A stretch of DNA of 64,000 nt, taken from positions 496,001 through 560,000 of the forward strand of contig NZ_CP133160.1 of NCBI RefSeq assembly GCF_030913365.1, given 5' to 3'. The stretch's first letter is position 1; the number at the start of each line of letters is the position of its first letter. The position numbers and the translations under genes are program-made. The notes under the pieces are model-generated. The model worked only from the letters and a program-made list of their open reading frames with translations. It did not search any database and had not been told where the DNA came from. Source of the DNA: Stenotrophomonas sp. 24(2023). GTDB taxonomy: Bacteria; Pseudomonadota; Gammaproteobacteria; Xanthomonadales; Xanthomonadaceae. Below are positions 19,456-47,114 of this stretch, piece by piece.

Positions 19456-22400
19456 TCACCACACGCCCATGCGCACCCGCATCACGCCGTTGCTGTCGTA
19501 GACACGCCAGTTGCCATCGCTGTATTCGGTGCGCTGGCCGCCATTGGGCGCCGACACCCTGAACATGTCCGACACCACATCGAACGCGGAGGTCTGGCCG
19601 TTGCTTGCCAGCTGGACGCCACCGATCCGGCCGTCCGCACGGACATTGACCGCCCAGGATGCCGAGGCCTCCGTTCCCCCCGCCGACCATGCCGGTGGCT
19701 GGGTCGCATCGTCGGCCACGCGGCTGAACATGGGACGGAACAGCCACAGGTACGGGGTATCCTCCCCCCGGCCACGCACGAGCACGCGGTAGCGGGCCGA
19801 TACCGCACCGGAGGGCGCCTTGGCGATCACGAACGGGCGCGGCAGGTTCGCCAGCGTAGGTACCGAGCCGATGTTCGGGTTGATCACCCAGGGCGACTGG
19901 GCCACGGCAATGGCCCCGCCGGCAGCATTGACCCAGGTGATCTCGACCAGCAGATCGCAGCGATGGGCGTTGACGCTCCCCGAGGCGCAGTAGGTTCTGC
20001 CCTGCTCCACGGCGATGTCGTATTCCGTGCCGAACCAGGAGATTTCGCTGCTGGCCGGCCTGCCCGGCCGCACCGAACCGATGCCGAACACGCCAACCGG
20101 ACGCCAGCTGTTGTCACCGGTCGGGTTGCCGAGTTCATGCCACCCCAGGTTGTAGCCCCATCCCCAGCCGGTACGTTGCCAGAGCGGGAAGGTGGCGTTC
20201 ATCAACAGGTTGCCGGACTCGCCCAGGTTTCTGACCAGTGCCTGCATCTGCTGGACAACAGCGGCTTCGGCCTTGCCACCGATCTGCGACTGCAGGCCAC
20301 TGAGCTGTGAGGCCTGGGCGCTGATCTGCCCCCCCTGCTGGGTCACCTGCGTCTGCAGCTGGTTGAAGCCGGTGGCCGACACGCTGCCTATCTGGGATTT
20401 CAGGTTGGTCAGGTCCTGCGCCGCGGCATCCAACCGGCTGCCCTGCTGGGTGACGGTGGTGGTCAGTCCGGCGATGGCCGCTGCATTGGCGTTGGTGGCC
20501 GCCGCCGTTTCCACGCCACCGGGCATCCACTGCGTGGCCGTTTCACCCTGCTGGAACATCGCGTTGTCCAGTTCCAGCCACAGGTTCTGCCCGGCCGCCG
20601 TCGCACCCAGACGCCAGGCAACCCGTGCCTGGGTGGTGCCTGCCGGTGCGGCAGGCGCGGTGAACACACAGCGCTGGAACGTCTCGGTCATGACGATGTT
20701 CTGCGTGTTGTTCGCCAGCGTTGCGCCTGTCGCATCCAGGTAGATGATGAAGCATTGCAGGTTCAACCCCACGAACCCCCGCGCGAACACGGAGGAGGTA
20801 TAACGCTGGCCGGGCACGGCCTTGGGCCGTGATGCTGTGGTGTTGCAGTCCAGCCCGACGTAGGCATTGGCCGCTGCCGTCGCCTGCGCGACCACGCGAT
20901 AGGCCACCGCCGAGCCGGGCAGCGGACTGGCCACATAGCTGCGTCCCAGCGCCGTGATGTTCTGGACCAGGTCGACCCAGCCCGTCGGCAGCCCGGTTTC
21001 GCTGCCCCGCACGTCGAAGCTGCTGTTGGGCAGCAGGTTGTCACCGCCGATGTTGCCCATCGATGACGCCAGGGACGTCAGCTGCTGCCCCTGTGCGCTC
21101 ACCAGGCCCTCGGTGACGGTCACCCGCGAGGTCAGGCCGGAAACAGCCGTTGTCGCCGCATCAGCGGACTGCTGGGCTTTGTAGGCATCGGTGACATCGA
21201 CCATCCTGATGTCGTCGATATCCAGCAGCACACCGTTGGGGCGGTTCAGCTGCGGAATGCCCACCATCAGCCGGTAGCGCTGGGACGTCGTGGTCGTGTC
21301 CAGGTAACCGCTGACTTTCGTCCACTGGCCTTTGCTGCCGTTGAGGCTGGCCAGGTTGGTGAACAACCGCGGCCAGGCCTGGCTGCCATCGGCAATCACC
21401 AGGTTCAGGCCAACGCCGATCTGCCCGCCGGGCGCATCCGGGCTGTCTGCACGCAGACGCAGGTAGTACTCGACATAGATCCGCCGGTTCTGGCCGCAGG
21501 GAATGTAGTCACCGATGTAGCAGTCCGCGTTCGACGTCGTGCCGACCACGGTGCTGATCAGCATGCCCAGGCGACCCGTCCGGGCAGAAGCGGTCTGGAA
21601 CTGGAACCGGTTGCCTCCGGCCTGCAGCGGGACGACGTTCGCGCCATTTTCGCCCTGCTCGAATGTGCCGAGCGGGAACAGGCTGTCGCCCCCGTTCTGC
21701 AGGACCCGGACACTGGATTCAAGCTGGGTGACCTGGGAAGTCTGCGCCTCGAGCCTGCCCTCGGCACTGCTGACACGTGATGCAAGCCCGCTGATCGCTG
21801 TGGTATTGGCGCCATTCTGGCCTTCCACCGCCCCCACCCGGTTGCCCAGCTGGGTGAGCTGCTGCCCCTGCGCATCGACCTTTCCTTCCGCCGTGTCCAC
21901 CCGCGTGGTCAACGATTGCAGCGCGCTGGCATCGGCCTTGCCATCGACCCGGGTCCGCAGCGCGGTGATGTCGCTGGCGTTGGCCTGGTCGCCGGCCACC
22001 CGTGCCTGCTGCTCGGCGGTCACGCTGGCCGCCGTGGCCACCTGGCCGTTGCCGGCCGGCAGGCGTGCTTCCATGGCACTGATGCGTCCGACCTGGGCAC
22101 TGTCGCTGGCCACGCGCGCGGTACGCTCGTCGGCAATGAACCCGGTGGTCACCTGCGCCAGGTCGGTGCCGCTGTACTGGCCCCGCATCTGCACTGCCAG
22201 CGTGCTGCGCTGGCTGGCTTCGGCGGCATCGGCGGCGATCCTGGCCTGGGCTTCCTGCTGCACCAGCGCCACGCTGGCCCCCGGTGTCGGCCGGCCCACG
22301 GCAACCCAGTCCAGCAGGAAGCCATGGGTTGCCGACTGCGTTGCGCCCAGCTGCACACGGATCGCATCCACCACGCCGGGCCACCACGGCACATCCTGCA

Positions 22401-25400
22401 CATCCATGATCGCCACGCCATGGGCATCCCACGCCGGCTCGGCCATCGCCACCTGCTTCTGCCCGTTCCAGGTGCGGTCAGCCGTGGTGATCCACTGCAG
22501 CGTGCCGGCCCACACCGGCGTACCCACGCGCTTCACCCGCAGCTTCACGAAACGATGGGCACTGCCATCCACGGCCAGCCCCGCTGGCGACTGCACCCAC
22601 GGTGACGCCGCGACGTTGGCCGGCCGCAACCAGCCATCCACCACGGTCGGCGCGCCGTTGCCGGTCCAGCCCTCGACCGCCTGGTCGAAGTACCAGATCA
22701 GGCGGCTGTCGAACTGCGTGCCGCTGCCGGCGGCCACCTCCGACAGGGCCCGCGCCAGCGATTCCACATCGCTCTGGCGGGTCTGCTGCTCCTGGGAAAC
22801 CGCCGCCTCGCGCTCGCGCTTCTCGTTCAGCAGACCGGCCACGCGCGCGGTGCTCTCTGCAGCGATGGCCTGCATGGACTCACCATCCGCCTGCGCCCGG
22901 GCGCTGGCCTCGGCCGCCAGCTCGCGGGCGGCCTGCGCCAGCCCACCGGCACGGGCTGCGGCTTCGGCCAGCCCCGCATCGATGCGGTCGCTGATTTCCT
23001 TTTCCAGGTTCCGGGCCTGCTGTGCCTGCCCGGTCTGGATGCCGCCGATCACCTCGCCCAGGTTGGGCTGCAGCGTCGCGCGCACGACCCGCATCCCCGT
23101 GGACAGCACGCCGCTGGTGTTGCGCGAGCGGCAGGCGAACGTCCAGGGCCCTGCCGCCGGCAGCATCGATTCAAACGCTGCAGCGTGGTAACCCGATTCC
23201 CCCAGCGGGGTCATCTCGTCCCAGACCAGGGCCGTGGCCACGCCGGCCACATACCGGATCTCCACGCCGGCGAAGTCCGGGGACTGCACGGTATCGCTGA
23301 GGAACCCCCACAGGTAGCGGCGCACACCCCCACTGAGTTCCTCCACGTCGAACAGATCCACCAGAACCGGGGGCGCATCCGCGCCCTGCGTGGTGTACTG
23401 CAGGGACACGGCAACGCCGGCACGCCCGTCCGGGCTGTAGGGCCGCACGACCACCGGGTAGGTACCCGCTCCGGGAATGGACCAGCTGGCGCTGCGGGTG
23501 ATCGTGCGTGCCACCTCCTCCAGCGCAGCGTTGCCGTCCGGGTCGGACAGCACGTGGATGTCACCGACCGGACCACTGATGTCGAAGCTCGCCTGCAGCT
23601 CGGTGCGCAGGCTGCCCCCCAGGCTGACCTGGCGCTCGACCACCTTAAGGTTGCTGGCCACCGGCCGGGTCTGCAGGGAAGAGGCATGGGAGGGCGGTAC
23701 ATACTGCCCGGTGCGCACGTAGTGCCAGAACTCGGGCCCTTCCTGCACCACATCCACTGCCGCCCCCTTCAGGTCGGCTTCCGGGCGGATGCCGGTGACG
23801 CGAACGCGCGTACCCGGGGTCTGCTTGAAATCGTAGATCCAGATCGTGTCGTGGGCCGGGTTGGCCTCGCTGTCGCCGGGCATCGGGGCATCGGCTGGCC
23901 AGGGGTCGGCCAGTACCAGCGTGTCGCTGGCCTCGGTACCTGCCAGCACGCGCAGTACGCGGTAGACGCGTTCGCCCGGGATGCGCACGCCGATGAAGGC
24001 ATTGCCCGCTGCCGGTGGCGGCACCGGTTCATCCAGCGTCAGCGTGGTGACCCCGGCGGTATCGCGGCTGGCGCCCTGCACGCGGCCGCCGAAGCCCCAC
24101 TGGGTGAGGTCATGCTGCAGGGCCAGCACCGACAGGCGCGCGTAGGCCAAGTGCTCCAGGTCCGTGCTGTAGCTGATCGACTTGTACTGGTAGACACTCT
24201 GCGCCAGGTGCCATCGGGCCAGCATGGCCGCGTGCGCTTCGCTGGTCACGCCTTCACCGGTGACCTTGGCCGGGTTGAGCATCACCTCCACGCCCGGCGC
24301 GGGTACGCGCAGGGTCGAGGCGGTCCAGGTGCGGCGATCCAGGTAGCTGTATTCGATGCCATCGGCCGCATTGGCCAGCGTGTAGTCGACCTGGAACTGC
24401 CCCTTCTTGATGGTGGCCATGTTGACCACGCCCGACAGCGGCTGCTCGTCCGCCGCCCAGGCAACGCCGAGGCGGCCCTTGGCCCAGGTCACCTGGCCGA
24501 AGCCGGCCAGCGCGATGGCGTCGAGCACGGCCTGGTGGCTGCGCACTTCGGTCAGCCAGTAGTCGTAGCTGAACCCGTTGTCCGCACAGTGCAGCATGAA
24601 CGCCTTCAGGCCTTCGATGTCGATGCGGCGATCGGCCATGCCCAGGCCGGCGATGCGCTTGCCGTTCTCGTCGTTGATGCCGCGGGCATAGGCCAGGATC
24701 TGCGCGCCCGGGTTGCTGGTCTCCTCGACCACCCACCCCGCTGCCTCGCCTTTCCAGACAGGAACCGGCCGCGAATGGGCCACGCAGCGGATCTCATCGG
24801 GCGTGCCGTTGAGCTGCCCGGAGGCCTTCATCTGCAGGCCGATCGCCGGAATGCCCGCGTGGCTGGCGTCATCGCGCTGCACACTGACCAGGTTGGTCCA
24901 GGTGAAGTTGGCCTGCGCTCCGCTGCCATCGGTGTTCTGGCCAGCCACGCGCACGCGCACATCGTACTGCCCGGGCTCGACATCACGCCCATAGCTCACC
25001 CGCCGGGTCTTCTGCGTACGGCCCACCACCGCATGGTTGCCGAACACCTGCCAGGCCGTACTGCCGGTGGGACGGTACTGGATCTGGACCTGTTCGCGGT
25101 TGTCCTTGTCCTTGCCCTTGGAGGTGACATCCCACAGGCGGAATTCGATGTTCACCTGCAGGCGCAGGGTGTCCGGTGAACTGGTGCGCTCCACCCAGGG
25201 GCCGGGAACATGCTTGGCATCATTGCCGGTATCGAGCAGCTGCGCGCCATCGACCACATCGGCATTGCTGTACAGCGGAATGGCCTCCTCCGGCATCTGC
25301 GGGAAACCGCGGAACCAGGTGCGTACGCCCTCGTAGCTGGACAGCGCTGCATCGCCGTTCTGCAGGGCCTCCACGCGCCCGACGTTGATGCCCGGGCTCA

Positions 25401-26019
25401 GGGTCAACGCCAGGTACTGCTCATCGGCCTCATACCAGGTGTACGGGCGACTGATCACATCCGGTGCGACACGCACCGAGCCGAACAGCAGCCCGAGCGG
25501 CTCGTAGGCGCGGACACGGTTGCGCGGTGCCGCCAGCGAATAGGCCGTCTCGGCCACGCCCCCGCCACCGGGCTTGGGCGGCTTGGGCGTCAGCACCTTG
25601 TTGATCAGCACGCTGCCGGCCACATAGACCGCCGACGCGGCGAGCGTGCCGTAGGTCCCTGCGATGGCGCCGGCCCCCCAGGCGCCACTGGCCGCCAGGG
25701 TCCCGATGCCGAACGTGAAATAGGTCAGCGCGATCATCGCGATCAGCGGGATCGCCGCCTTGCCCACCACGCTGTGCACTTCGATCAGCTGGCCATGGCG
25801 CGGCTGCATCTGCATCCACTGCTCGCGCGGCACGTCCTGGCCATCCACGTGAACCTGCCAGGGCTTGCCATCCAGGCCATCGACATGGCGCATCAGGAAG
25901 GCATACAGGCTCTCGCCCGGACGCAGATCGGCCGGCACGTTGCGCTGGCCATCCAGCAGGACCGGATGCGGGGTGATGATGAGGCGGCCATCGGCCACCG
26001 GTCGGGGGGTCAGTTCCAT
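19456..26019 (-). CDS. Phage tail tip/host specificity protein J with long C-terminal fibre
   Basis: 2187 residues, more than 1.5 times lambda J. Residues 1-80 resemble a tail assembly (gpI-like) module; 84-143 form a Gly/Ala-rich hydrophobic stretch; about 150-900 is the J core (ending in [15 protein letters not shown] blocks and fibronectin-like repeats); about 1000-1110 is an alanine-rich coiled coil. The distal part alternates coiled-coil repeats ([35 protein letters not shown]) with three beta-sandwich, CBM-like modules opening [25 protein letters not shown] and [12 protein letters not shown]. The protein is expected at the tail tip and to bind the host surface. Uninterrupted frame and host-like base composition argue against recent decay. 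It overlaps the NlpC/P60 gene by 10 bases. Confidence 0.88.
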
Positions 26020-26405
26020 GCGTAGTATCCCTCTATCCGCAGCCCGTATCCGGGCAGGTCACGAACCCGGTGCAGCACGCTGCAGCCGTTCGTTTCATTG
26101 CTGTGCAGGACCCAGCCCTCATGGGCCAGGAAAAAGAAAACCCCGGCATGGCCGGGGGTGCGGTGCCCACGTTCGATCATCAGGACCAGGTCGCCATCGT
26201 GCGGTGGCCCCTCGCGCGGCGTCGCGCGCAGGCGTGAATGGCCGGCCAGTTCGAGCGCCCCGCGCAGGCCGCGGGGCCGCCGGCCCGGCAGGTCCACCTC
26301 GCGCCCGAACAGCTCGCGCTGCGCCAGCACCACCAGGTCGGCGCAGTCGAACCGGGCCTGTTCATAGGGAATGCCCACCAACCGCTCGATGTCGTGCAGC
26401 CGCAT
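26010..26405 (-). CDS. Phage NlpC/P60 tail-tip peptidase (gpK-like)
   Basis: 131 residues. The catalytic pair is Cys21 in FDCADLVV and His86 in TPGHAGVFF, the NlpC/P60 arrangement used by siphovirus tail-tip proteins to cleave peptidoglycan peptide bonds during DNA entry. The ATG at 26405 shares a base with the upstream stop (TGATG). It sits between the DUF1833 gene and J, the same order as lambda L-K-I-J. Both catalytic residues are intact. Confidence 0.85.
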   Translation of the reverse strand: MRLHDIERLVGIPYEQARFDCADLVVLAQRELFGREVDLPGRRPRGLRGALELAGHSRLRATPREGPPHDGDLVLMIERGHRTPGHAGVFFFLAHEGWVLHSNETNGCSVLHRVRDLPGYGLRIEGYYAWN

Positions 26406-26866
26406 CAGAAAATCCCGGGCAGGGTGAACGGATTGGCGTGCAGCAGCACGGCCTGCTGGCGCATCAGGAAATCCACGCCACACTGCGCGCTGACCGTGCG
26501 CGTGTTGACCGACACCTGGGTCATCGGCAGGTCGTACTCGGCCTCGATCACATCCGGATCGGCACGGTCGGTGATCATCAACCGCGCGGTGAGCATTTCC
26601 CCGGGCATCAGCCGTTCCAGGTCTTCGGTCAAGGCCCGCCCGACGTTGTCGATCACCAGCTGTGCCCGCGGCGCCTGCCCGGTGACATCATCGGGCAGCT
26701 GGAAGCCGAAGGGCGCGGCGATGAACGCCAGGCCGTTGCTCGTCCAGTTGACCGTGTCATTGACGATGCGCAGCACATCGGGCATCGAGGGCGCGGACAC
26801 CTCCAGCAGCATCAGCGGCCCCTGCGTGTCGGCCAGGCGCTGGCGACGTTCGTTGAAGGTGCTCAT
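26405..26866 (-). CDS. Phage tail tip protein, DUF1833-type (gpL position)
   Basis: 153 residues, no membrane segment. LEVSAPSMPDVLRIVNDTVNWTSNG and the later DLPMTQVSVNTRTVSAQ give the beta-rich pattern of DUF1833 proteins found between the tape measure and the NlpC/P60 gene in many siphoviruses. By position it corresponds to lambda gpL, which caps the tip complex. It overlaps the next upstream gene by 4 bases (ATGA). Confidence 0.7.
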   Translation of the reverse strand: MSTFNERRQRLADTQGPLMLLEVSAPSMPDVLRIVNDTVNWTSNGLAFIAAPFGFQLPDDVTGQAPRAQLVIDNVGRALTEDLERLMPGEMLTARLMITDRADPDVIEAEYDLPMTQVSVNTRTVSAQCGVDFLMRQQAVLLHANPFTLPGIF

Positions 26867-27216
26867 GGCATGTACTCCAGCACCAGGTCACGCTTGGAAA
26901 AACGGAACTGGGTGTTCAGCGGCACCAGGCGGCCGATGCCCTGCGGGAAACGGGCCGTGATCGGCTGCCCGGTACGTGGGTGCGCCATCGTGAACCACCC
27001 CACCCGCTTCACATCGTGCAGGTACCAGGCTTCGAACGCTTCGGCATCGGCGGCACTGCGGAACTGTACCGATGCCTGGATGTTCTTCATCACCCGGCTG
27101 TTGATCACGCGCATCTTGCTCGGTCCACGCTCCATGTCGGTCCGCTCCTCGGACGCGACGATCTCCTCGCTGTAGTCGGCAAAGCGGATCTCTGCATATT
27201 CTGGCCAACGGCTCAT
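26863..27216 (-). CDS. Putative minor tail protein (gpM position)
   Basis: 117 residues from the ATG at 27216. I do not recognise a named domain with certainty. It contains KNIQASVQFRSAADAEAFEAWY and GWFTMAHPRTGQPITARFPQG, and ends FRFSKRDLVLEYMP, a beta-rich pattern of small tail-tip proteins. The assignment is by position directly after the tape measure and before DUF1833, as lambda M. It overlaps both neighbours by 4 bases, so the tip genes are tightly coupled. Confidence 0.6.
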   Translation of the reverse strand: MSRWPEYAEIRFADYSEEIVASEERTDMERGPSKMRVINSRVMKNIQASVQFRSAADAEAFEAWYLHDVKRVGWFTMAHPRTGQPITARFPQGIGRLVPLNTQFRFSKRDLVLEYMP

Positions 27217-29543
27217 CCCACTGCCTCCATCCATCCGTATCGGGCTCGTCCAATGGCACCCAGCTCGCCACCGTTGAGGCTGTCGCCCACGATGTCGATC
27301 ACCAGCCGCCGCATTTCGCTGCCATCGGGCATGCGCTGGCGCTCCTCGCGGGTCTGCACCCGGTTGTCGCCGTAGTTGTTGATTTCCACATTCATGCCGC
27401 CACCGCCCGAAGGCGCGATCGCGACCAGGCCGGTGGTGACTGCATCGCCCCCGCCGATGCCTTCTCCCCGGCGCAGTGCCCCCTGCAGGGCGAAGAACGC
27501 CGACGGGCCGCCCAGTGCCGCCATGTCTTCCTGGCTGAGCACCCCTTCCCCCTTGTGCACGATGCCGGCCGGCTCGTACTTGCCGCCGGGGCCGGTATAG
27601 CCGCCGCTGGAGTACCCCTTGCCGCCGGCATCGGGCTGCCCACTGCCGAAGATCGCCTTGAATATCCCGACCACGGCCTGCTTGGCCGCGATCCTGGCCA
27701 GATCGGCGATGATGGCGTTGGCCATCCCGGAGAAGGAGAGCTTCCCGGTCTGCGCGAACCGCACCAGGCTCTCCTCCATCCCGGAGAACATGTTGGTGAA
27801 CAGGCCTGCGCTCTGATCGGCCATGTTCGCCGCACCGGCGGCATAGTCATCGAATGCCCGCTTGGCCCCCTCCCCCCAGTCCGACTGGCGGGCCTGCTTG
27901 GCCTGCTGGTAGGCATCTTCACGCTCCAGCGCCTGCGCATGGAATTCGTCCAGCCTCGCCAACTGGTCGCGGTAGCTGTCCGACTCAATGACAGTGCCAT
28001 CCGCCCCGCGCGACTTGTCATCCAGCGCGCGCTTCCGGCTTTCCCGGTCCTCATCCAGGGCACTGCGCCGACGCATGCGTTCGCTGGCTTGCGCACCGTT
28101 CCCGATGGTGAACAGGTCCTGGTCGTTGGCACGCTGCTGTGCCTGCGCGGCAACGGCCAGGTCGCGCTTGAGCTGCAGCAGGTCCTGCAGCGCCTTCGTT
28201 GCGGCTTCCGCCGCCGCGGTCTCCTTGCCCTGGGCAACGGCGGCATCCAGGGCGGTGCGGACCCGCTTCTCGTCAACCGTGCTGAGCGCACGCGTGCGGT
28301 GGGTGATCTCATCCAGGATGGTCACCCGCAGCTTCTCGGCGGCGGTCATGCCCTCGGTCAGCTGCAGCTGGATGCGATCCTGTGCGGTCTGCTTGTCGAT
28401 GCGGTCAACCAGCCCATCAACCGCGACAGCTTCCTGCTGCGACTGTTCAATCGCCTGCTGCCGGGCCTGCTGCTGCTGGCGGAAGCGCTCCATGCGCTGC
28501 AGGTGCATCTGCTTGTGCGCGGCCTCCTGTTCGATCTGGGCACGCTGCTCGCTGGAGGCGCCCTGGCCGTCCGAGACGGCGTTGACCTGATCGTCGCGCT
28601 CGGCGCGCCAGGCGGCCATTTCGCCCTTGGTCAGCCGGATCCACTCGATGTCATCGCGCCGGCTCGATGCCTTCAGGCCCGCGATCATGCCATCGACCGC
28701 CGCACTGGCCTGCAGGGACGCCCAGCCGACACTGCCGATCTGGGCCCGGACGTTCTCCAGCTTCACATTGTCCACGTTGTACAGCGCAGCAACGATCTTC
28801 TGGTAGAGCTCCGGGTCCACCGATTTCTTGATCTGCGCTTCCAGTTCGGCGAACTGCTGGCGCACCGGGGTCACGCGCTTCTCGAAGTTGGCCAGCTCCG
28901 CCTGGGCCTTCTGCAGGCCCTCATAGTCGGCCGCCGCGCTCAGGCCGCTGCCTTCACGGGCCGAGGTCTTGCCGTACTCGATCCGCCCCTGCCAGTGGGT
29001 GATCGAGCCGCGCAGCGCCTTCTCTCTTGCATCGTACTCGCGCAGGGTCTTGAGCTGCTCATGCAGCGCGCCGATGCCGTCGGTGACCGGCAGGCTGCGG
29101 TTGGCCAAGCCTTTGCCCACCTCATCCATCGTGAAGGACATCACCTTCATCGACTGGATCTGCTCACGGTACTCGGCCCGTGCCTTCTCGGCCTGCTGCA
29201 CCATGTCCATGTAGGCCTGGCCGACCTTGCGGATACTGACGGCAGCGATTTCCCATGGTCCGCCGGCCCATTTGAGCAGGCTCTGGGCGCCGGACCGGAG
29301 ATCCCCTTTCAGGCCTGCGCTGCCGCCCTCGGCTGCGCCGCCGTCGCCGGCCTTTCCGGACGCTCCCTGCGCCCGGCGGGCCGAGGCATGCATGCGGTCC
29401 AGCGATGCGGCGGCCTGGTCGGCATCGCGCCGTATGATCCGCAGGCTCTGGCCAGCAATCCGGCTGGCCTCGTTCATCGCTGCGCGGAACGCTGCCGAAT
29501 TGGTCCGCAGCGTTACGTCAATGATCTGGTTAGTGGACGCCAC
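27213..29543 (-). CDS. Phage tail tape measure protein (lambda gpH type)
   Basis: 776 residues. The N-terminus (TNQIIDVTLRTNSAAFRAAMNEA) is typical of tape measure proteins; long alpha-helical, Gln/Ala-rich coiled coils fill residues 100-540; the C-terminal block LSFSGMANAIIADLARIAAKQAVVGIFKAIFG (seen as FSGMANAIIADLARIAAKQ) marks the lambda tape-measure C-terminal domain. The start is the GTG at 29543, because GGGAGG lies 7 bases before it; an in-frame TTG at 29558 lies within that ribosome-binding site. At about 0.15 nm per residue, as in known phages, a tail of roughly 115 nm would be expected; this is inference. Confidence 0.88.
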   Translation of the reverse strand: MASTNQIIDVTLRTNSAAFRAAMNEASRIAGQSLRIIRRDADQAAASLDRMHASARRAQGASGKAGDGGAAEGGSAGLKGDLRSGAQSLLKWAGGPWEIAAVSIRKVGQAYMDMVQQAEKARAEYREQIQSMKVMSFTMDEVGKGLANRSLPVTDGIGALHEQLKTLREYDAREKALRGSITHWQGRIEYGKTSAREGSGLSAAADYEGLQKAQAELANFEKRVTPVRQQFAELEAQIKKSVDPELYQKIVAALYNVDNVKLENVRAQIGSVGWASLQASAAVDGMIAGLKASSRRDDIEWIRLTKGEMAAWRAERDDQVNAVSDGQGASSEQRAQIEQEAAHKQMHLQRMERFRQQQQARQQAIEQSQQEAVAVDGLVDRIDKQTAQDRIQLQLTEGMTAAEKLRVTILDEITHRTRALSTVDEKRVRTALDAAVAQGKETAAAEAATKALQDLLQLKRDLAVAAQAQQRANDQDLFTIGNGAQASERMRRRSALDEDRESRKRALDDKSRGADGTVIESDSYRDQLARLDEFHAQALEREDAYQQAKQARQSDWGEGAKRAFDDYAAGAANMADQSAGLFTNMFSGMEESLVRFAQTGKLSFSGMANAIIADLARIAAKQAVVGIFKAIFGSGQPDAGGKGYSSGGYTGPGGKYEPAGIVHKGEGVLSQEDMAALGGPSAFFALQGALRRGEGIGGGDAVTTGLVAIAPSGGGGMNVEINNYGDNRVQTREERQRMPDGSEMRRLVIDIVGDSLNGGELGAIGRARYGWMEAVG

Positions 29544-29556
29544 ACGCGTTCCTCCC

Positions 29557-29618
29557 AAAAAAGTGGAGGGCCCCGCAGGGCCCCTTCATGAGCGCCGGGC
29601 ACCTTGCCCGCCCGGCGC
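29557..29618 (-). promoter_or_regulatory. Two hairpins between the chaperone and tape measure genes
   Basis: GCGCCGGG (29592-29599) pairs with CCCGGCGC (29611-29618), and GGGCCC at 29568-29573 pairs with GGGCCC at 29578-29583. On the minus strand the second is followed after six bases by TTTTTT (29557-29562), then the tape-measure ribosome-binding site. The second could act as an attenuator lowering tape measure expression relative to the tail tube. Confidence 0.5.
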
Positions 29619-29630
29619 CTGCCTGCCCGG

Positions 29631-30304
29631 TCAGCCCTGGCGGCTGCCGTTGCGGCGCGATGCACTGTCAAACAGCTCCAGCAGCTGGCTGGCCCTGGCC
29701 TTGGCCTCATCGCGCGGTTGCCTGCGCGGGCGTACCAGCAGGAAATCCTCGGCGGTGGTCGCATTGCCATGGACCTGCGCCAGCACGCTGGTCAGCTGCG
29801 CGAGCATGCCCTGCAGCGGCTGGTCCATCGGTTCCAGCCGTGCAAAGGCGTACATCTCGGAAAGCTGGCGGGAGGTCACTCCCGCCAGCAGATGGTCCGG
29901 ATGCGGGAAGCCAAGCCGCCACGCAATCCGGAACTGAAGCCGGCGCTCAGGCCGGCGGATCAGTTTTTTTCCAGCTCTCCGATGGCCGCTTCACCCAGGG
30001 CATTGAGCGTCTGCGCCACGCGGAACACCCGGTCCAGTGCAGCGGCCGACTTGGCACCGAGCTGGGCCACCTCGCCGTCGCTGAAAAGACGCGCGCCCTG
30101 TTCGTCGACCAGGCACAGGCCCACGAAGCGTGCACGGAAGTCTTCCACCTTCGGGGTGTCACCGCCGTAGGTGTCCTGCTCCCAGCGATCACGGTCGCTG
30201 GCCGACATCATGGCCACGCGCACCATGCCGCCCCACTCCGGGACCGCCACATCCTGGTGCCGGCGGTCCTGGGCCTGCAGGATCTGCGCTTTGCCCAGCA
30301 GCAT
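29631..30304 (-). CDS. Tail assembly chaperone GT fusion, made by -1 ribosomal frameshift
   Basis: Reading shifts by -1 at A-AAA-AAC (29963-29969), two codons before the G stop. The shifted frame (CTG ATC CGC ...) continues without a stop for 110 codons to 29631. The added domain contains RLGFPHPDHLLAGVTSRQLSEMYAFARLEP split across the line (key parts GFPHPDHLLAG and TSRQLSEMYAFARLEP), typical of gpT/DUF4035-type extensions. In lambda-like phages G and GT chaperone the tape measure at a set ratio. Total length is about 224 residues. The extension has its own GTG at 29879, but no Shine-Dalgarno sequence, so fusion is preferred. Confidence 0.82.
29939..29969 (-). promoter_or_regulatory. Programmed -1 frameshift signal: slippery heptamer plus stem-loop
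   Basis: The zero-frame codons are CTG GAA AAA AAC TGA, giving the heptamer A_AAA_AAC at 29969-29963. After a 6-base spacer, GCCGGC (29956-29951) pairs with GCCGGC (29944-29939) over a 6-base loop. Slippery site, spacer length and stem all fit the known signal in tail assembly chaperone genes. Confidence 0.85.
29960..30304 (-). CDS. Phage tail assembly chaperone G
   Basis: 114 residues from ATG 30304 (or 115 from the GTG at 30307, which overlaps the tail tube stop). It begins MLLGKAQILQAQD and ends ALGEAAIGELEKN immediately after the frameshift site. KSAAALDRVFRVAQTLNAL near the C-terminus is typical of siphovirus tail assembly chaperones of the HK97/N15-like type. It should bind the tape measure protein before tail tube polymerisation. 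It sits between the tail tube and tape measure genes, the invariant siphovirus order. Confidence 0.82.
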   Translation of the reverse strand: MLLGKAQILQAQDRRHQDVAVPEWGGMVRVAMMSASDRDRWEQDTYGGDTPKVEDFRARFVGLCLVDEQGARLFSDGEVAQLGAKSAAALDRVFRVAQTLNALGEAAIGELEKN

Positions 30305-30762
30305 CACGGGGTGCCACCTGCGGCAACGGCGACGATGGCGAAATCGCGCGGCAGCAGATCGGCGGTGAAGGTCAGCACCTGGTTGGTGCCCGGGGCCACG
30401 TTGAACGCGGCGACCTTGGCCACGAAGGTGGCAGCGTCACCGGTGGGCAGCACCATCAGGAAGTGCAGGTCGGCGTCCGGATCGGCGTCGCGCAGCAGTT
30501 CCTGGCCGGCCGAGGTCCCCACCGGCCAGCGATGGCCGGTCACCTGCACGGTCTGGCCACCGGACAGGCCGGCGATGCTTTCCATCTGCCGCGAGCGCAG
30601 GTTGGTGGCATCCAGGGTATTGGCCTGGCCACGGCCGAACGGGAAGGCGGTCAGGCCGTCGACCTCGGTGTAGCCTGCCGGATCGTTCGGCTTGACCGGG
30701 GCCGTGCCGGCCTTCACGTACAGCACGGAATCCTGGGCGGAAATGGCTTGGTTGTTGCTCAT
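30304..30762 (-). CDS. Major tail tube protein
   Basis: 152 residues. The protein starts MSNNQAISAQDSVLYVKAG and has TEVDGLTAFPFGRGQANTLDATNL, a beta-rich pattern common to siphovirus tail tube proteins (lambda gpV-like), plus LPRDFAIVAVAAGGTP at the end. AGGAGA lies 7 bases before the ATG at 30762. It is the first gene of the tail operon. No tail terminator (gpU/gpZ-like) or head-tail joining gene lies upstream, where they would be expected in a complete phage. Confidence 0.8.
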   Translation of the reverse strand: MSNNQAISAQDSVLYVKAGTAPVKPNDPAGYTEVDGLTAFPFGRGQANTLDATNLRSRQMESIAGLSGGQTVQVTGHRWPVGTSAGQELLRDADPDADLHFLMVLPTGDAATFVAKVAAFNVAPGTNQVLTFTADLLPRDFAIVAVAAGGTP

Positions 30763-30782: not shown

Positions 30783-30806
30783 AAAAAGGCCACCGTGCGG
30801 TGGCCT
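30783..30806 (-). terminator. Terminator-like hairpin just before the tail tube gene
   Basis: AGGCCACC (30787-30794) pairs with GGTGGCCT (30799-30806), a perfect 8-bp stem with a 4-base loop. On the minus strand it is followed by TTTTT (30783-30787 region), ending about 20 bases before the tail tube ATG. It would stop transcripts entering the operon from upstream unless antiterminated. Confidence 0.75.
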
Positions 30807-30944: not shown

Positions 30945-30973
30945 AAAAAAGCCCCCGGCTTGCGCCGGAGGCT
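30945..30973 (-). terminator. Promoter-proximal terminator in the tail operon leader
   Basis: On the minus strand AAGCC-t-CCGGC and GCCGG-g-GGCTT flank a 4-base loop, with one internal mismatch, followed by TTTTTT. It begins about 15 bases after the predicted start site of the promoter at 30994-31022, so most transcripts would end after about 40 bases. Confidence 0.75.
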
Positions 30974-30993
30974 TCTATGTCATCGTGGTACAG

Positions 30994-31022
30994 ATCCTAG
31001 GTTTGCGGTGTGCACCTGTCAA
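30994..31022 (-). promoter_or_regulatory. Near-consensus sigma70 promoter pointing into the tail operon
   Basis: On the minus strand TTGACA (31022-31017) and TAGGAT (30999-30994) are separated by exactly 17 bases. The -35 is perfect; the -10 matches TATAAT at 4 of 6. The region 30763-31165 between the tail tube gene and the divergent hydrolase has no gene; it holds this promoter, three hairpins and, on the plus strand, GATAAT at 31125-31130, a possible -10 for the hydrolase. Confidence 0.7.
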
Positions 31023-32537: not shown

Positions 32538-33110
<573 letters not shown>

Positions 33111-33503
33111 GCGCGTTCCTGTTCGTGGGGGCGTTATGCAAGCGGGAAATTCTACAGGCCCGCCCACGGGCCGCCTACGTTCAGGTTGGCGCAGCCCCTG
33201 CCCGCCACACGGCTTCAAGGCGCCCTTACAAAAAAATAACAAGTGATTCGCTGCATCGCAGCATGTATCGCTTACCACAAAATTCTTTCATATTCCATCG
33301 CTTTGTATCGACGCGAAACATATCGAAATAAAATTATTTATTCTTTCAAATCAAATACTTGAATATATTTTTAGTTAAACGAAAGCAAACTCAAAAGTCA
33401 GTTGCGTTGCACCCCTGCGAAAAGCTCATTACGGTTTCATTCAGCCTGAACGGATCGTTCAGCTAGTACCGCAATCCATCCACGCTTCCAGCAAGGGATC
33501 ACG
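33111..33503. promoter_or_regulatory. AT-rich intergenic region upstream of the Oar-like receptor
   Basis: No gene is seen. From about 33228 to 33400 the DNA is mostly A and T, with ATAAAATTATTTATT and TTGAATATATTTTTAG-type stretches, in sharp contrast to the GC-rich surroundings. It must hold the promoter of the receptor gene, but no single -35/-10 pair stands out. AGCAAGGGATCACG at the right end is the ribosome-binding region. Confidence 0.6.
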
Positions 33504-36500
33504 ATGAATCTGAATTTCAAGGGACGGCGCCTGAAGCCAACTGTCCTGGCCATGGTGCTCGGCGCCATGGCGGGCTCCGCATTCGCCCAGAGCACTTCTG
33601 GCGACATTGTCGGCACCGCGACATCGGCGGAAAAGGTCCAGGTCAAGAGCCTGGCTTCCGGCGCAACCCGTGAAGTAAGCGTCAGCGCCGATGGCCGCTT
33701 CCGCATTTCGCAGCTTCCCACCGGCACCTACGAGGTCACCACGGTCAGCGGCGGCAGCGCGACCGCCACCACGCGCGTCAACGTGGTGGCCGGCCAGCAG
33801 GCATTCGCCACCTTCGCCGCCGCCAGTTCGGGCGCGGCCACCTCACTGGACACGGTCAACGTGCGCGCCCTCGGTGCGGCCAACACGATCGACCTGGGCA
33901 GCGTTGAATCGCGTACCACGTTCACCGCTGACAAGCTCAATGCATTGCCCGTCGGGCGCGACGTGACCAGCGTCTCCCTGCTGACCCCCGGCACCGTGGC
34001 GTCAAGCGGCTACTTCGGCCCTGCGTCATTCGGCGGCGCTTCGGCTGCGGAAAACAGCTACTACGTCAACGGCTTCAACGTTACCAACCTCTACGACAGC
34101 CTGTCGTTCTCGGAAATCCCGTACCAGGCCATCGACCAGCTGGACGTCCAGACCGGCGGTTACGGCGCCCAGTACGGCTTCTCCACCGGCGGCGTGACCA
34201 GCGTCAACGTCAAGCGCGGCACGAACGAGTGGAAGGGCGGCTTCAGCTGGACCGGGGCACCGGACTCGCTGCGCGAAAGCGCGCCGGATACCTACTACAA
34301 CGACGGGTCGATCTTCCGTTCCTATGACAAGAACAGCAGCAGTTCGAACGTGTACAGCGTCTGGGCCGGCGGCCCGCTGATCGAGGACAAGCTGTTCGTC
34401 TTCGCCATGGGCCAGTTCAGCGATTCGAAGACCACCAGCTTCAGCAACCGCGGCTCGCAGTACACCACCAATGGACGGCCGCCGTCGGCGGCAGCCCTGT
34501 CCACCACCGCCTACGACTACGAGTCCAAGACGCCCTACTGGCTGTTGAAGGTCGACTGGTACCTCAACGAGAACAATCACCTGGAGTACACCGGGTTCGA
34601 CAACAGCCGGCGCTACAACTACGACTACTACAATGCGGCCTATGACGTACCCACGGCCGGCGGCGAACCGGCCAAGACCAGCTACCTGGGCGAGCTGGTC
34701 GGCAAGAGCGGCGGGCAGACGGACATCTTCAAGTGGACCAGCTACCTGACCGACAACCTGACCGGGTCGCTGCAGTACGGCCAGATGCGCAACCGCGCCT
34801 CCGAGCACACCATCAGCCCCGACGGTGTCTTCGACGCCTACAACGGTGACATCAACAGCCCGCAGGGTGCCTGCCCCTACGTCCTGGACTACCGCTCCGA
34901 AACCGGCGGCACCGGCCGCCGCATCGGCTGCGCCGTGGCCAGTACCGTGGGCATCTTCGGTGGCCGCAACGAACGCAAGGGCGCGCGCCTGGACTTCGAC
35001 TGGCAGCTGGGCAACCACAAGATCGGCTTCGGCTACAGCGACGAGAAGTGGACCTCGGTCCAGGGCACGTCCTATTCCGGTGGCGCGCTGTGGTACCTGG
35101 AGGACGACTACGCCAACCTGGTCAACTTCCGCAACGGCGGCTCCATCGAGATCAAGCAGAAGTCCTGGTACCTGCAGGACAACTGGCAGATCACCGACAA
35201 CTTCATGCTGTACGCCGGCGTCCGCAACGACTCGTTCAACAACAAGAACTCCGACGGCATCAGCTTCGTCAAGCAGGACAACATCTGGCAGCCGCGCCTG
35301 GGCTTCTCCTGGGACCTGCTCGGTGACGGCCGCAGCAAGCTGTTCGCGTCGGTGGGCCGTTACTCCCTGCCCATCGCGGCCAACGTCGCACTGCGTGCCG
35401 CCAGCGCGTCCTACTACCTGGACCAGTACTACACCTACGACGGCATTGGCGCCAACGGCGCTCCCAACATCACCGGCCGCTATGAAGACGGCGCCTACGA
35501 TTCGGTCATCAACGGCGAAGGCGGCACCACCCCCGATCCGCGCGCCGTGGCCTCGAAGGGCCTGAAGCCGTACACCCAGGACGAAGTCATCCTCGGTTAC
35601 CAGCAGCAGATCAGCTCGTCGGTCGATTTCTTCAACGACTGGACCCTGGGCATCAAGGCCACCTACCGCCGCATCAACAAGGCCATCGATGACACCTGCG
35701 ACTCGCGCTCGCTGTACAACGCCGCGGTGGCCGCAGGCTATGACCTGTCCAACTGGTCCGACCCCTGGACCGTGCCGGAAGGCCTGCCGGGCTGCTGGAT
35801 CTACAACCCGGGCAGCGACCTGAAGGTCACCCTGGATGTCGACGGCAATGGCACGACCGAGGAAATCACCGTCCCCGGCGCCACGCTCGGCCCGAAGGCC
35901 AAGCGTTCCTACAAGGCCGTCACCCTCAGCGCCGACAAGCAGACCGAACGCTGGTATGCCAGCCTGTCCTACACCTGGTCGAAGCTGGAAGGCAATTACG
36001 AGGGCCTGGTGAAGAGCACCAACGGCCAGGACGACACCGGCACCACGTCGGACTTCGACTTCGCCGAGATCATGTACGGCGCCGACGGCTACCTGTTCAA
36101 TGACCATCGCCACAGCTTCAAGCTGTATGGCGGCTTCAAGTTCACCGATGAGTGGTCGGTCGGCGTGAACCTGCTGGCACAGTCGGGCGCCCCCAAGAGC
36201 TGCCTGGGCGGCGGCTGGGGCAGCTTCGGCACCGAATACGGCTACACGGGCGTGTTCCACAGCTGCGAACTGGAAGCCGATGGCGTCACCAGCGCCGATG
36301 ACATCGCCAAGGTCGGCAGCGCTGGCCGGACGCCGTGGCAGTTCACCGTCAGCCCGAGCATCACCTACACCCCGAAGTGGATGGAAGGCCTGAGCGTGCA
36401 GGTATCGGTGCTCAACGCCTTCAACAACATCAAGCCGGTGCAGGTGTACGAGTCCAAGTACGGCCGCCCCAGCGGGGCCCAGACCATCCGCACCTTCTAC

Positions 36501-36569
36501 AACTACAACACGCCCAAGTACTTCAACGATCCGCGCTACGTGCGCTTCCAGGTGCAGTACGACTGGTAA
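33504..36569 (+). CDS. Oar-like TonB-dependent outer-membrane receptor
   Basis: 1021 residues. A signal peptide (1-28, ending GSAFA) precedes a carboxypeptidase-regulatory-like beta domain (about 33-110: GRFRISQLPTGTYEVTTVSGG, here QLPTGTYEVTTVSGG), a plug (about 115-240, SYYVNGFNVTNLYDS) and a 22-strand-type barrel ending in Trp (RFQVQYDW). This is the Oar architecture. Ligand is unknown; the downstream peptidases suggest peptides. Unlike the other three receptors here it lacks the GTTAAG-N4-TGTTA upstream motif and has an AT-rich leader. Confidence 0.9.
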   Translation: MNLNFKGRRLKPTVLAMVLGAMAGSAFAQSTSGDIVGTATSAEKVQVKSLASGATREVSVSADGRFRISQLPTGTYEVTTVSGGSATATTRVNVVAGQQAFATFAAASSGAATSLDTVNVRALGAANTIDLGSVESRTTFTADKLNALPVGRDVTSVSLLTPGTVASSGYFGPASFGGASAAENSYYVNGFNVTNLYDSLSFSEIPYQAIDQLDVQTGGYGAQYGFSTGGVTSVNVKRGTNEWKGGFSWTGAPDSLRESAPDTYYNDGSIFRSYDKNSSSSNVYSVWAGGPLIEDKLFVFAMGQFSDSKTTSFSNRGSQYTTNGRPPSAAALSTTAYDYESKTPYWLLKVDWYLNENNHLEYTGFDNSRRYNYDYYNAAYDVPTAGGEPAKTSYLGELVGKSGGQTDIFKWTSYLTDNLTGSLQYGQMRNRASEHTISPDGVFDAYNGDINSPQGACPYVLDYRSETGGTGRRIGCAVASTVGIFGGRNERKGARLDFDWQLGNHKIGFGYSDEKWTSVQGTSYSGGALWYLEDDYANLVNFRNGGSIEIKQKSWYLQDNWQITDNFMLYAGVRNDSFNNKNSDGISFVKQDNIWQPRLGFSWDLLGDGRSKLFASVGRYSLPIAANVALRAASASYYLDQYYTYDGIGANGAPNITGRYEDGAYDSVINGEGGTTPDPRAVASKGLKPYTQDEVILGYQQQISSSVDFFNDWTLGIKATYRRINKAIDDTCDSRSLYNAAVAAGYDLSNWSDPWTVPEGLPGCWIYNPGSDLKVTLDVDGNGTTEEITVPGATLGPKAKRSYKAVTLSADKQTERWYASLSYTWSKLEGNYEGLVKSTNGQDDTGTTSDFDFAEIMYGADGYLFNDHRHSFKLYGGFKFTDEWSVGVNLLAQSGAPKSCLGGGWGSFGTEYGYTGVFHSCELEADGVTSADDIAKVGSAGRTPWQFTVSPSITYTPKWMEGLSVQVSVLNAFNNIKPVQVYESKYGRPSGAQTIRTFYNYNTPKYFNDPRYVRFQVQYDW

Positions 36570-36598
36570 TCCATTCTCTCCAGGAACATCCGCAGATT

Positions 36599-36628
36599 AC
36601 CGCCGGCCTCGCGCCGGCGGTCTTTTTT
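36599..36628 (+). terminator. Rho-independent terminator after the Oar-like receptor
   Basis: ACCGCCGGC (36599-36607) pairs with GCCGGCGGT (36613-36621), followed by CTTTTTT. Confidence 0.88.
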
Positions 36629-36638
36629 CCGGCGACTT

Positions 36639-37493
<855 letters not shown>

Positions 37494-37597
37494 TGCATGA
37501 CTCCGGAGGAAACAAACGGGGGAAGAGAACAGAGCATCATACAACCTGCACGCGGGCTGACTGAAATTCGGGTTCGTCAGGATTCCGCGCATTTTTC

Positions 37598-37612
37598 GTT
37601 AAGACCATGTTA
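37598..37612 (+). promoter_or_regulatory. GTTAAG-N4-TGTTA motif upstream of a TonB-dependent receptor (copy 1)
   Basis: GTTAAG-ACCA-TGTTA lies 100 bases before the ATG at 37712. The same spacing and bases recur before two other receptors in the window. The TGTTA half could be part of a -10 element. Confidence 0.55.
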
Positions 37613-37711
37613 CGGTCGAGACGCACTGTATCGATCGTAAACGACCTGTTTGCATTGCATGGCCGGATGGCGCAGTGCCGCTTCTGCTTTTGCCTTATTC
37701 ATGGAACATCA

Positions 37712-40522
37712 ATGAAAGACCATCGCACCACCGCACGTCGCAACACCCTCGCTGTCGCCCTGTTCTCCGCCCTGGTTGCCGCCACGCCGGCAATGGCACA
37801 GGACAAGGCCACCAACCTGGACAAGGTCACCGTCACCGGGTCGCTGATTCCGCAGACCCAGATCGAGAACCAGACCCCGGTCATGACGATCTCCGCCGAG
37901 GCCATCCAGGCCCGCGGTTTCAACAGCGTCGCTGAAGTCCTGCAGCAGTCCTCGCTGACCACCGGCGGCATCCAGGGTGGCCAGACCTCGGCCTCCTTCA
38001 CCCAGGGCGCCGAAGCGGCCGGCATGTTCGGCCTCAACCCGGGCTACACCAAGTACCTGATCAACGGCCGCCCGATGATGTCCTATCCGGCGCTGTACAA
38101 CGGTGGTGACGCCTTCAACAACATCAGCGGCATTCCGATCGACATCGTCGAGCGCATCGAAGTGCTGCCCGGCGGCCAGTCCTCGCTGTATGGCTCCGAT
38201 GCCATCGCCGGCGTGGTCAACATCATCCTGAAGGAACGCATGGACGGCGGCAGCCTGACCGTGCGTGGCGGCGCGTACACCGAAGGTGGCGGCAGCAACG
38301 TGCGCATCAGCGCCGCCAAGGGCTTCACCGCCCTGGACGACCGTTTCAGCGCGCTGGTCAACGTGCAGCTGGAAACCAGCAACCCGATCTGGGGCTACCA
38401 GCGCGACCTGACCCGCCAGAACAACCCGCACGGCTACACCGCGCAGCTGCCGGCCAATGATTTCGCCGTCATCGATGCCGCCGACAACTCGCTGCACGTG
38501 ATGGACCCGAGCCGCTGCGCCAACGTGGCCGGCCAGTTCGGCGGCACCACCGTGCTGGCCAACCGCCCGACCGGGCAGTCGTGCGGCTCGGTCTACGGCG
38601 CCGGCTACAAGACCCTGAAGAACGGCAAGGACAGCGGCCAGTTCTACACGTCGATGACCTTCGACGCGACCGACAACCTGCAGCTGTTCGCCGACGTGCT
38701 GTACAGCAAGGAAAAGACCGAGTACACGTCCGGCTCGAACTACCTGTGGTGGGGCACCAAGAGCACCATGGGCGGCTTCTACGACCAGGGCTCGCAGAAG
38801 GTCGTCAACCTGCAGCGCGCGTTCGCGCCGGAAGACATCGGCGGCGAAGGCTACAAGGGCATCCTGAACAACGACAAGAGCCGTGCCTACCAGGTCACCC
38901 TGGGTGGCAAGGGCGCGATCGGCAGCTGGGATTACAGCCTGAGCTTCACCCGTGGCGAATACCGCCTGGATGAAAGCAAGTTCCAGCGCTTCAACGACGA
39001 GATCAACGCCTACTTCGCCGACAAGGTGCTGGGCGCGCGCCTGGGCACCTATACCGATGCCAAGGGCGGCACGTTCGGCATCTACAACCCGAACTGGGCA
39101 GCGTTCTATTCGCCGATCGCACCGGAAGACTTCGCGGGCTTCACCGGCTACACCACCAACCATGCCCGCACCTGGCAGAACCTGGCGCGCGCGCAGATCA
39201 CCAACGGCTCGCTGTTCGCGCTGCCGGGCGGCGATGCCGGCCTGGCCGTGGTCGTGGAAGGCGGCAGCGAAGGCTGGGACTACAGCCCTGACCAGCGCCT
39301 GCTGGACGGTGGCGTGTGGGGCTCGTCGGCCGTGGCCGGCAACGGCCACCGCAGCAACTACGCTGTGACCAGCGAACTGCGCATGCCGCTGCTGGAGTCG
39401 CTGACGGTGACCGCTTCGGGCCGCTACGACGCGTTCAAGATCGCCGACAAGACCGTGGACAAGTCCACCTACAGCCTGGGCATCGAGTACCGTCCGCTGG
39501 AAAGCGTGCTGCTGCGCGGCAAGTACGGCACCGCGTTCCGTGCCCCGACCCTGCCTGATGCCTTCCAGGGCCGCAGCGGCTACTACGCCGCCAATTCGAC
39601 CGACTACTACCGTTGCGGCCAGATGGGCTTCACCCCGGGCAACACCGACGCCTGCCGCTTCGGCAACAACGTCTCGGCCTATTCCGAGCGTGCCGGCAAC
39701 CCGGACCTGCAGCCGATCACCGCCGACGTCTGGAATGCCGGCATCGTCTGGGCGCCGATGGCAACCCTGTCGGTCTCGGCCGACTACTACAACTGGAAGA
39801 TCAAGAACGAAGTCGGCACCGCCAGCACCGACCAGCTGCTGCTGGCCGAGTACTACTGCCGCAACGGCCTGCCCAACGGCGCATCGGCCACCTGCCAGAA
39901 CGTGGCGGACTGGGTCGTGCGTGACAACGCCGGCAACCTGCAGTCGCTCTACACGCCGAAGATGAACGTGGCGCGCCAGAACCTGCAGGCCGTGACCGTC
40001 GGCTTCAAGTACCTGCAGGACATCGGCCGCTTCGGCTCGCTGCAGTTCTCGGGCAACTACACCAACATGCTCAAGCGTGAAGTGCAGGCGCAGCCGGGTG
40101 AACTGTTCCAGGACCTGCTGGGCAACCCGGTGGCGATGTGGAACTACGACAGCTACGCCAAGGTGCGTTCGGACATGGCCGTGGGCTGGGCCCTGGGCAA
40201 GTTCACCACCACGGTGTACGCCAACTACATCGGCCATACCCCGGACTACCTGGCCGGCCTGAACGGCTATGGCTACGTGCACAAGGCATCGGGCAGGACC
40301 GCCGGCAAGTGGGGCTCCTACACCACGTACAACCTGAGCGTGAACTACCGCGCCCAGGATGACCTGACCTTCTCGCTGATGGTCAACAACGTGTTCAACA
40401 AGATGCCCGACAACCAGGCGCACAGCTACCTGGGCACCTCGGGTACGCCGTTCAACAACTACCTGTACAACGTCTATGGCCGTGCCATCTACGTGCAGGC
40501 CAAGTACGACTTCGGCAAGTAA
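37712..40522 (+). CDS. TonB-dependent receptor, first of a tandem pair
   Basis: 936 residues. A signal peptide (about 1-30, ending TPAMA) precedes a TonB-box-like LDKVTVTGS, a plug (about 45-190; PVMTISAEAIQARGFNSVAEVL in parts, YLINGRPMMSYPALYNGGDA, SLYGSDAIAGVVNIILKE) and a barrel ending YVQAKYDFGK. The plug and many barrel strands are nearly identical to the next gene, so the two arose by tandem duplication. Such receptors import large substrates using the proton motive force via TonB. Ligand unknown; nearby exported peptidases favour peptides. A strong terminator follows. Confidence 0.92.
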   Translation: MKDHRTTARRNTLAVALFSALVAATPAMAQDKATNLDKVTVTGSLIPQTQIENQTPVMTISAEAIQARGFNSVAEVLQQSSLTTGGIQGGQTSASFTQGAEAAGMFGLNPGYTKYLINGRPMMSYPALYNGGDAFNNISGIPIDIVERIEVLPGGQSSLYGSDAIAGVVNIILKERMDGGSLTVRGGAYTEGGGSNVRISAAKGFTALDDRFSALVNVQLETSNPIWGYQRDLTRQNNPHGYTAQLPANDFAVIDAADNSLHVMDPSRCANVAGQFGGTTVLANRPTGQSCGSVYGAGYKTLKNGKDSGQFYTSMTFDATDNLQLFADVLYSKEKTEYTSGSNYLWWGTKSTMGGFYDQGSQKVVNLQRAFAPEDIGGEGYKGILNNDKSRAYQVTLGGKGAIGSWDYSLSFTRGEYRLDESKFQRFNDEINAYFADKVLGARLGTYTDAKGGTFGIYNPNWAAFYSPIAPEDFAGFTGYTTNHARTWQNLARAQITNGSLFALPGGDAGLAVVVEGGSEGWDYSPDQRLLDGGVWGSSAVAGNGHRSNYAVTSELRMPLLESLTVTASGRYDAFKIADKTVDKSTYSLGIEYRPLESVLLRGKYGTAFRAPTLPDAFQGRSGYYAANSTDYYRCGQMGFTPGNTDACRFGNNVSAYSERAGNPDLQPITADVWNAGIVWAPMATLSVSADYYNWKIKNEVGTASTDQLLLAEYYCRNGLPNGASATCQNVADWVVRDNAGNLQSLYTPKMNVARQNLQAVTVGFKYLQDIGRFGSLQFSGNYTNMLKREVQAQPGELFQDLLGNPVAMWNYDSYAKVRSDMAVGWALGKFTTTVYANYIGHTPDYLAGLNGYGYVHKASGRTAGKWGSYTTYNLSVNYRAQDDLTFSLMVNNVFNKMPDNQAHSYLGTSGTPFNNYLYNVYGRAIYVQAKYDFGK

Positions 40523-40550
40523 TCGCCGGCGCAGGTCCGCATGACCTGGA

Positions 40551-40579
40551 AAGCCCCGCACCAGCGGGGCTTTTTTTTT
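40551..40579 (+). terminator. Rho-independent terminator after the first tandem receptor
   Basis: AGCCCCGC (40552-40559) pairs with GCGGGGCT (40564-40571), followed by nine T. Confidence 0.92.
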
Positions 40580-47103: not shown

Positions 47104-47114
47104 TGCTCCATCGC

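Follow-up and report, generated by a model that had tools for sequence, protein, structure and literature searches.

Headless siphovirus tails and antitermination of the Q type are both already known, and tailocins are usually described as single clusters that possess their own regulator and lysis genes. For the F-type pyocins and tailocins (Pseudomonas aeruginosa, prophage 01 of Pf-5, rhizoviticin), the available parts of the reports describe headless lambda-like tail genes together with lysis genes (PMC2647930, PMC10811719). In P. chlororaphis, two divergent tailocins and one lysis cassette occur in one genome according to the sections at hand, and a lysis cassette common to two tailocins within one cluster is already known (PMC12090994). 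The maltocins P28 and S16 of Stenotrophomonas maltophilia are characterized in the accessible text as similar to R-type pyocin clusters (PMC13393414). On the regulatory side, the portions available on AlpA of P. aeruginosa depict one antiterminator acting via a promoter site on a pair of unlinked operons, of which one serves lysis; the terminator in one target begins 26 bp downstream of the start, and AlpA is reported to share no sequence homology with other antiterminators, lambda Q included (PMC7969949). Here, a stretch of 64,000 nucleotides from Stenotrophomonas sp. 24(2023) (contig NZ_CP133160.1, positions 496,001 to 560,000; "the window") was analyzed, which contains a headless siphovirus tail operon (cluster 1, C1) on the minus strand.

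C1 is probably one output operon of a dispersed, domesticated F-type tailocin-like regulon, with Q21-like antitermination acting in trans and lysis provided by another locus. The part of this explanation that can be read directly from the DNA is that four loci of the window's genome (G000) carry one leader, a promoter directly followed by a terminator. These are C1, a second headless tail operon (C2), a holin-lysozyme pair and an operon of tip genes. Coordinates with the prefix "C1:" are positions on contig C1 of G000, unprefixed ones are window positions. The leader at C1:846913 precedes genes for a 65-aa holin and a phage lysozyme, the one at C1:3567864 a tip-only operon (from C1:3568313), which has fibre, L, K, I and J genes but neither a tube nor a tape-measure gene.

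In C1, the leader contains a sigma70-type promoter, TTGACA-17-TAGGAT (30994..31022, minus strand), recognized by 10/12 matches (shuffles gave a mean of 0.1) and by leader alignment. The alignment also revealed GGTGCACACC between -35 and -10 (31007..31016, minus strand), a candidate Q-binding element (QBE). GGTGC is present in all 13 aligned leaders and the whole 10-mer in 10 of them; in the available text on it, the QBE sits at a similar position (PMC6606751). The initial transcribed region harbors ACGATGACATA (30976..30986, minus strand), a candidate sigma-pause element of which TGACATA occurs in 13/13 leaders. The promoter-proximal intrinsic terminator (30947..30976, minus strand) consists of a 13-pair stem and a T tract (RNA fold -25.4 kcal/mol, z -4.8), its hairpin lying within about 20 bases of the likely transcription start. 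A second intrinsic terminator lies just before the tail-tube gene (30787..30806, minus strand), and by eye the other four C1 operons have a hairpin with an altered stem sequence at this position. A preceding sequence-only reading of the window had mentioned neither the promoter nor the two terminators. RNA folding placed a terminator-like hairpin at the end of every operon's leader; that of C2 folds at -20.6 kcal/mol, though it was missed by the simple terminator scan. A search of Rfam at E 0.5 gave BjrC68 as its sole match, which was rejected as a chance match on the hairpin since its 20.9 bits are below the gathering score of 39.

The leader was followed through a sample of 91 Stenotrophomonas genomes, one per species. 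C1 is carried by G000, G022, G036, G049 and G063, C2 by these five and by G046 and G088. A pattern search of 10 genomes, allowing up to 3 mismatches, recovered the leader from C1 and/or C2 of the seven carriers and from two further places in G000; two control genomes yielded none, and the hits with three mismatches in G000, G086 and G088 do not resemble leaders. A covariance model built from 13 leaders, which match by construction, scored at least 73.7 bits at 18 sites in 11/91 genomes, the next best match under stricter filters reaching 32.1 bits. Most carrier sites that had not been used for training are close to training sequences; the site in G040 is an independent find. Each of the 14 leader sites found in the seven carriers falls into one of the four locus types named above. 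Among the seven, G000 alone showed a leader before a tip-only operon. Of 395 genomes in the family, nine matched at E 1e-6; four of these, from three genera, lie outside Stenotrophomonas and have a single site each. The gene of a Q-like protein is present in all 11 genomes with the leader and lies directly upstream at 7/8 non-carrier leader sites; in G017 and G038, prophage genes follow downstream. Judged from sequence, the leader shows two features of Q21-type control, a sigma70 promoter with a conserved spacer element and a close terminator, and in phages a linked putative antiterminator gene.

The holin-lysozyme pair belongs to a control locus (C1:845978-848673), in which Q-like, Cro-like and divergent repressor genes are located 5' of the leader. 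Both the holin (phrog_920, 3.3e-19) and the lysozyme (PF00959, 1.8e-17) were identified by profile matches. These lysis genes, bearing a C1-type leader, lie 0.32 Mb from C1 and presumably serve it, which largely answers an objection of the sequence-only reading, the absence of lysis genes. An R-type maltocin as lysis helper was rejected for G000, as its genome gave no match to the sheath family PF04984. The predicted fold of the Q-like protein (142 aa) is, among the matches listed, closest to the phage 21 antiterminator Q, with a sequence identity of only 11-14%. Lambda Q and AlpA are not among the fold matches listed, which excludes nothing, and when the Q family profile was run against PDB sequences, a single hit resulted that looks like a chance match. 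An antiterminator is to be expected because the terminator-like hairpin in each leader should otherwise silence the operon.

From these data we infer a Q-driven switch. Once repression is lifted at the control locus, the Q21-like protein would load on the polymerase wherever a leader is present, its likely site being GGTGCACACC in the spacer from -35 to -10, and the Q-loaded polymerase would read through the promoter-proximal terminator or terminators. Unlinked tail and lysis operons would thereby be switched on together. Tails would then assemble without heads, their length being set by the tape measure, and holin and lysozyme would release them by lysis. Fibre domains would choose the target cells, and killing would presumably proceed as with F-pyocins. 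Tentatively, one may go further and envisage an "exploded", chromosome-wide tailocin, a modular mix-and-match weapon in which one Q21-like antiterminator serves several unlinked leader-tagged operons. Its parts, namely the tail bodies C1 and C2, separate alternative tip genes, arrays of 2-6 side fibres and a lysis cassette, might come and go at individual loci, the leader being all that membership would require.

C2 (C1:2162423-2177363) is situated between a cation-efflux gene and a Dus gene. Its genes encode a head-tail adaptor (Ad1), a head closure protein (Hc1), a tail terminator, the tube, a 454-residue tape measure, M, two fibres, L, K and I, besides J and several small proteins that were assigned by frame. 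The C2 tube was detected in 7/91 genomes at E 1e-20, namely in the carriers listed above, all of which share the left flank and the gene order; a flagged stop in the tube gene of G088 lies outside the 218-residue frame that was compared. Between M and L, 2-6 tandem side-fibre genes with a shared N-terminus are found (two in G000, four to six elsewhere). These arrays, whose number of genes varies by species, are a candidate specificity repertoire. Nine C2 genes were compared with six genomes, the fibre, chaperone and J frames being outside the comparison. Their frames are open, except for I2 of G046, which is cut by the fetched stretch, and dN/dS ranges from 0.07 to 0.39 (tape measure 0.20-0.52).

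Seven of the 91 genomes have the control locus, and precisely these seven have C2; the five C1 carriers are a subset of them. The chance of finding five C1 carriers within seven C2 carriers is 4.5e-7, that of two identical sets of seven 1.2e-10, kinship being ignored in both values. In a tree of 45 genomes, which is a thin basis since it was calculated from two genes flanking the C1 site and has no support values, G036, G046, G049 and G063 belong to one clade, and G000, G022 and G088 are separate. C2 and Q thus seem to have been kept or transferred jointly over at least four lineages. C1, on the other hand, is an optional part of the regulon because two genomes have C2 and Q but not C1.

Several observations fit less well with a dispersed tailocin regulon. 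Six of the seven control loci have no leader between Q and the holin gene, and the repressor gave no autoprotease match. The clade mentioned also includes the non-carrier G054, and kinship within it bears on the co-occurrence. Moreover, G046 and G088 do without C1, C2 has kept its genes for connection to a head in all seven carriers, and C1 lacks a tail terminator. The last point had been raised as an objection in the sequence-only reading, too, and is largely answered by a locus in G086. There, genes for an S24 repressor, DUF1376, a holin, a lysozyme and a Rz1-like protein are followed by a C1-related tail; neither head genes nor an integrase were noticed and no high-scoring leader was found at this locus, which is a candidate for a conventional F-type tailocin. 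Since it has no tail-terminator homologue before the tube gene either, while the stretches of G086-C12 and G090 do, headless members of the C1 tail family may commonly do without this gene.

The data could also be explained by two or three independent F-type tailocins that have retained the same ancestral phage late promoter without being functionally coupled. That C1 and C2 possess tubes of different families (phrog_158 and phrog_584, respectively) agrees with this, as do the two genomes carrying C2 and Q without C1. However, uncoupled tailocins are unlikely, as C2 and Q (84% or more) are found in the same seven genomes over several lineages and as the hairpin of each leader should block expression unless an antiterminator acts.

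It is also rather improbable that the tails belong to a dispersed gene transfer agent (GTA) or a satellite-like particle, in which the C1 and C2 tails would join heads encoded elsewhere. Such a particle would account for the retention of Ad1, Hc1 and the tail terminator in C2, and the GTA of Caulobacter uses antitermination as well, as stated in the available part of the report (PMC11150451). Yet none of the 14 carrier leader sites is located at head genes, and the HK97 capsid family PF05065 gave no match in the five C1 carriers, although this genome-wide search did not extend to terminase, portal or further capsid families.

The C1 site lies between rimO and the dienelactone hydrolase gene. 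Tape-measure homologues were detected in 14/91 genomes at E 1e-20 and DUF1833 homologues in 18/91 at E 1e-6, while C1 with identical gene order occupies this site in five. The sequence-only reading had suggested comparing this interval across the genus. Of 45 intervals (the window and 44 of the other 90 genomes; the remaining 46 were not fetched), five contain the headless operon and 29, with a length of 89-148 bp, are empty. The other 11 have inserts of 0.5-3.7 kb, in which no tail-gene homologue was found at E 1e-3 and which are too short to be full prophages. With these inserts in 11 genomes, the gap looks like an insertion hot spot. By eye, the boundaries of the five filled sites are similar. 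A recent strain-specific insertion of C1 was rejected as the site is common to five species.

Between the window and the other four C1 operons, synonymous divergence is 0.31-0.92 for most gene pairs and thus like that of the flanking genes (0.26-0.88); only for the tape measure and T compared with G022 is it higher (1.3 and 1.7). Values of dN/dS range from 0.08 to 0.20 in the genes for the tube, G, T, M and DUF1833; those for NlpC, tape measure and fibre have 0.32-0.45. To judge from divergence and dN/dS, C1 is old and selected; purifying selection and a fixed site are found without the rest of a phage. Selection had been deduced earlier from the intact frames, and neither of the contrary findings named in advance, relatives with a full prophage at the site (45 intervals) or a dN/dS near 1 in the tail genes (0.08-0.45), was encountered. 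The most variable gene is that of the tape measure, which comprises 776-782 residues in four genomes and about 356 in G022, where it is shortened in frame with the other C1 genes open, a natural tail-length variant. In related loci of G086 (two), G090 and G023, the open frames span 1108-1199 residues. A decaying remnant, i.e. a still unbroken tail module left by deletion of the other prophage genes, is very improbable, since despite a related module in a G086 prophage (contig C12) with terminase, portal, protease and head protein and the head-tail adaptor genes persisting in C2, it is largely refuted by a dN/dS well below 1 over deep divergence with open frames, by five species sharing gene set, leader and site with flank-like synonymous divergence, by the lack of boundary direct repeats (>=9 bp here, >=10 in the other four) and by the absence of a full prophage at this site in any relative examined. 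Attachment repeats flanking C1 were rejected on the same repeat search. Of the two identities originally offered for C1, the domesticated F-type tailocin-like particle thus stands, while the conserved site and dN/dS speak against the decayed prophage.

The eight C1 frames, all open, run from 30762 to 19456 on the minus strand in siphovirus order, and matches to PHROGs and Pfam bear out the headless tail operon first recognized from its frames. They encode the major tail (tube) protein (30304..30762, 152 aa; phrog_158, 1.3e-19), the tail assembly chaperone G (29960..30307, 115 aa; phrog_344, 1.4e-27), the T part of GT (29631..29879; Phage_tail_T, 1.7e-7; PHROGs tail protein, 3.1e-4), the tape measure (27213..29558; phrog_24, 3.1e-63; Tape_meas_lam_C, 4.7e-25), a tail-tip protein called M-like from its place in the order (26863..27234, 123 aa; phrog_384, 6.2e-18), a DUF1833/minor tail protein (26405..26866, 153 aa; PF08875, 6.4e-14; phrog_396, 1.6e-30), a NlpC/P60-like minor tail protein (26010..26483; phrog_329, 1.2e-7; no Pfam match) and the central tail fibre J (19456..26019, 2187 aa; phrog_31, 4.1e-140; PF24801). 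The slippery heptamer A AAA AAC (29963..29969, minus strand), noticed before as a preserved frameshift signal, is kept in 5/5 orthologous operons; a -1 frameshift to GT is expected, and the fusion frame of 225 aa is present in the window. The tape measure probably starts with GTG at 29543 (776 aa) rather than with TTG at 29558. The listed NlpC frame reaches 79 bases into the gene upstream of it, so that, by eye, translation probably begins near 26408 instead.

No genes beyond the tail operon were seen between rimO and the hydrolase gene. As reported before, head, portal, terminase, integrase, repressor, holin, endolysin and tail-terminator genes were not found among the frames of this interval, of which the eight tail proteins were profiled and the others inspected by eye. 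C1 hence has the intact non-contractile (lambda-like) tail genes of an F-type tailocin in a cluster free of head, packaging and integrase genes; the integration, replication and head genes of a functional prophage are missing at the site. The contractile sheath PF04984 had no match in G000, G036 and G063, and in G022 and G049 it matched far from C1. A megablast search of INPHARED with the C1 operon gave no match, and the 644 INPHARED records matching the tape measure do so only partially, none covering 80%. In genome contigs, a tape-measure search yielded two loci, one in S. maltophilia D457 and a weak match in Pseudomonas. Elsewhere in the window, positions 33001-52000 have a lower G+C content (0.59-0.67 per kb, mostly 0.65-0.73 on either side), this stretch beginning by eye at a TonB-receptor-like gene.

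Among the literature matches listed (titles and beginnings of abstracts, few subscription papers), there were no dispersed tailocin loci, with or without a common antitermination leader, and no F-type tailocin of Stenotrophomonas. If true, the phage antiterminator regulon would show how a prophage is dismantled and kept as scattered host parts. It would also account for the continued function of tail modules that lack regulator, lysis or terminator genes and are readily mistaken for remnants. Within the 91 genomes, the leader is a search key as well, with a wide gap in score between member loci and background (73.7 versus 32.1 bits).

Compared with the F-type pyocins and tailocins, as far as the available parts of the reports describe them, the C1 system has headless lambda-like tail genes and lysis genes at its disposal, too. 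Those tailocins are, however, depicted as single regions that include lysis and regulatory genes, whereas in the C1 system tails, tips and control/lysis genes are unlinked and share a promoter-terminator leader. The tailocins of P. chlororaphis, which are R-type according to reference titles in the available text, lie in one hybrid cluster, whereas those described here are non-contractile and dispersed. With maltocins P28 and S16, the system has in common headless tail particles in the same genus, here predicted from genes, but G000 gave no match to the sheath family PF04984. Phage 21 Q and lambda Q at PR'-tR' resemble the predicted control in several respects: Q21 is the best of the fold matches listed for the modelled protein, the -35/-10 block is conserved, a terminator lies just downstream, and the Q gene adjoins the leader in prophages. 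By contrast to phage 21, one host-resident Q with an identity of 11-14% appears to serve up to four chromosomal operons. In this respect the system is similar to AlpA, as a single antiterminator with a promoter-located site is proposed for unlinked operons including lysis; while the second target of AlpA is not described as a tail operon in the available text, the targets of the Q-like protein would be tail operons.
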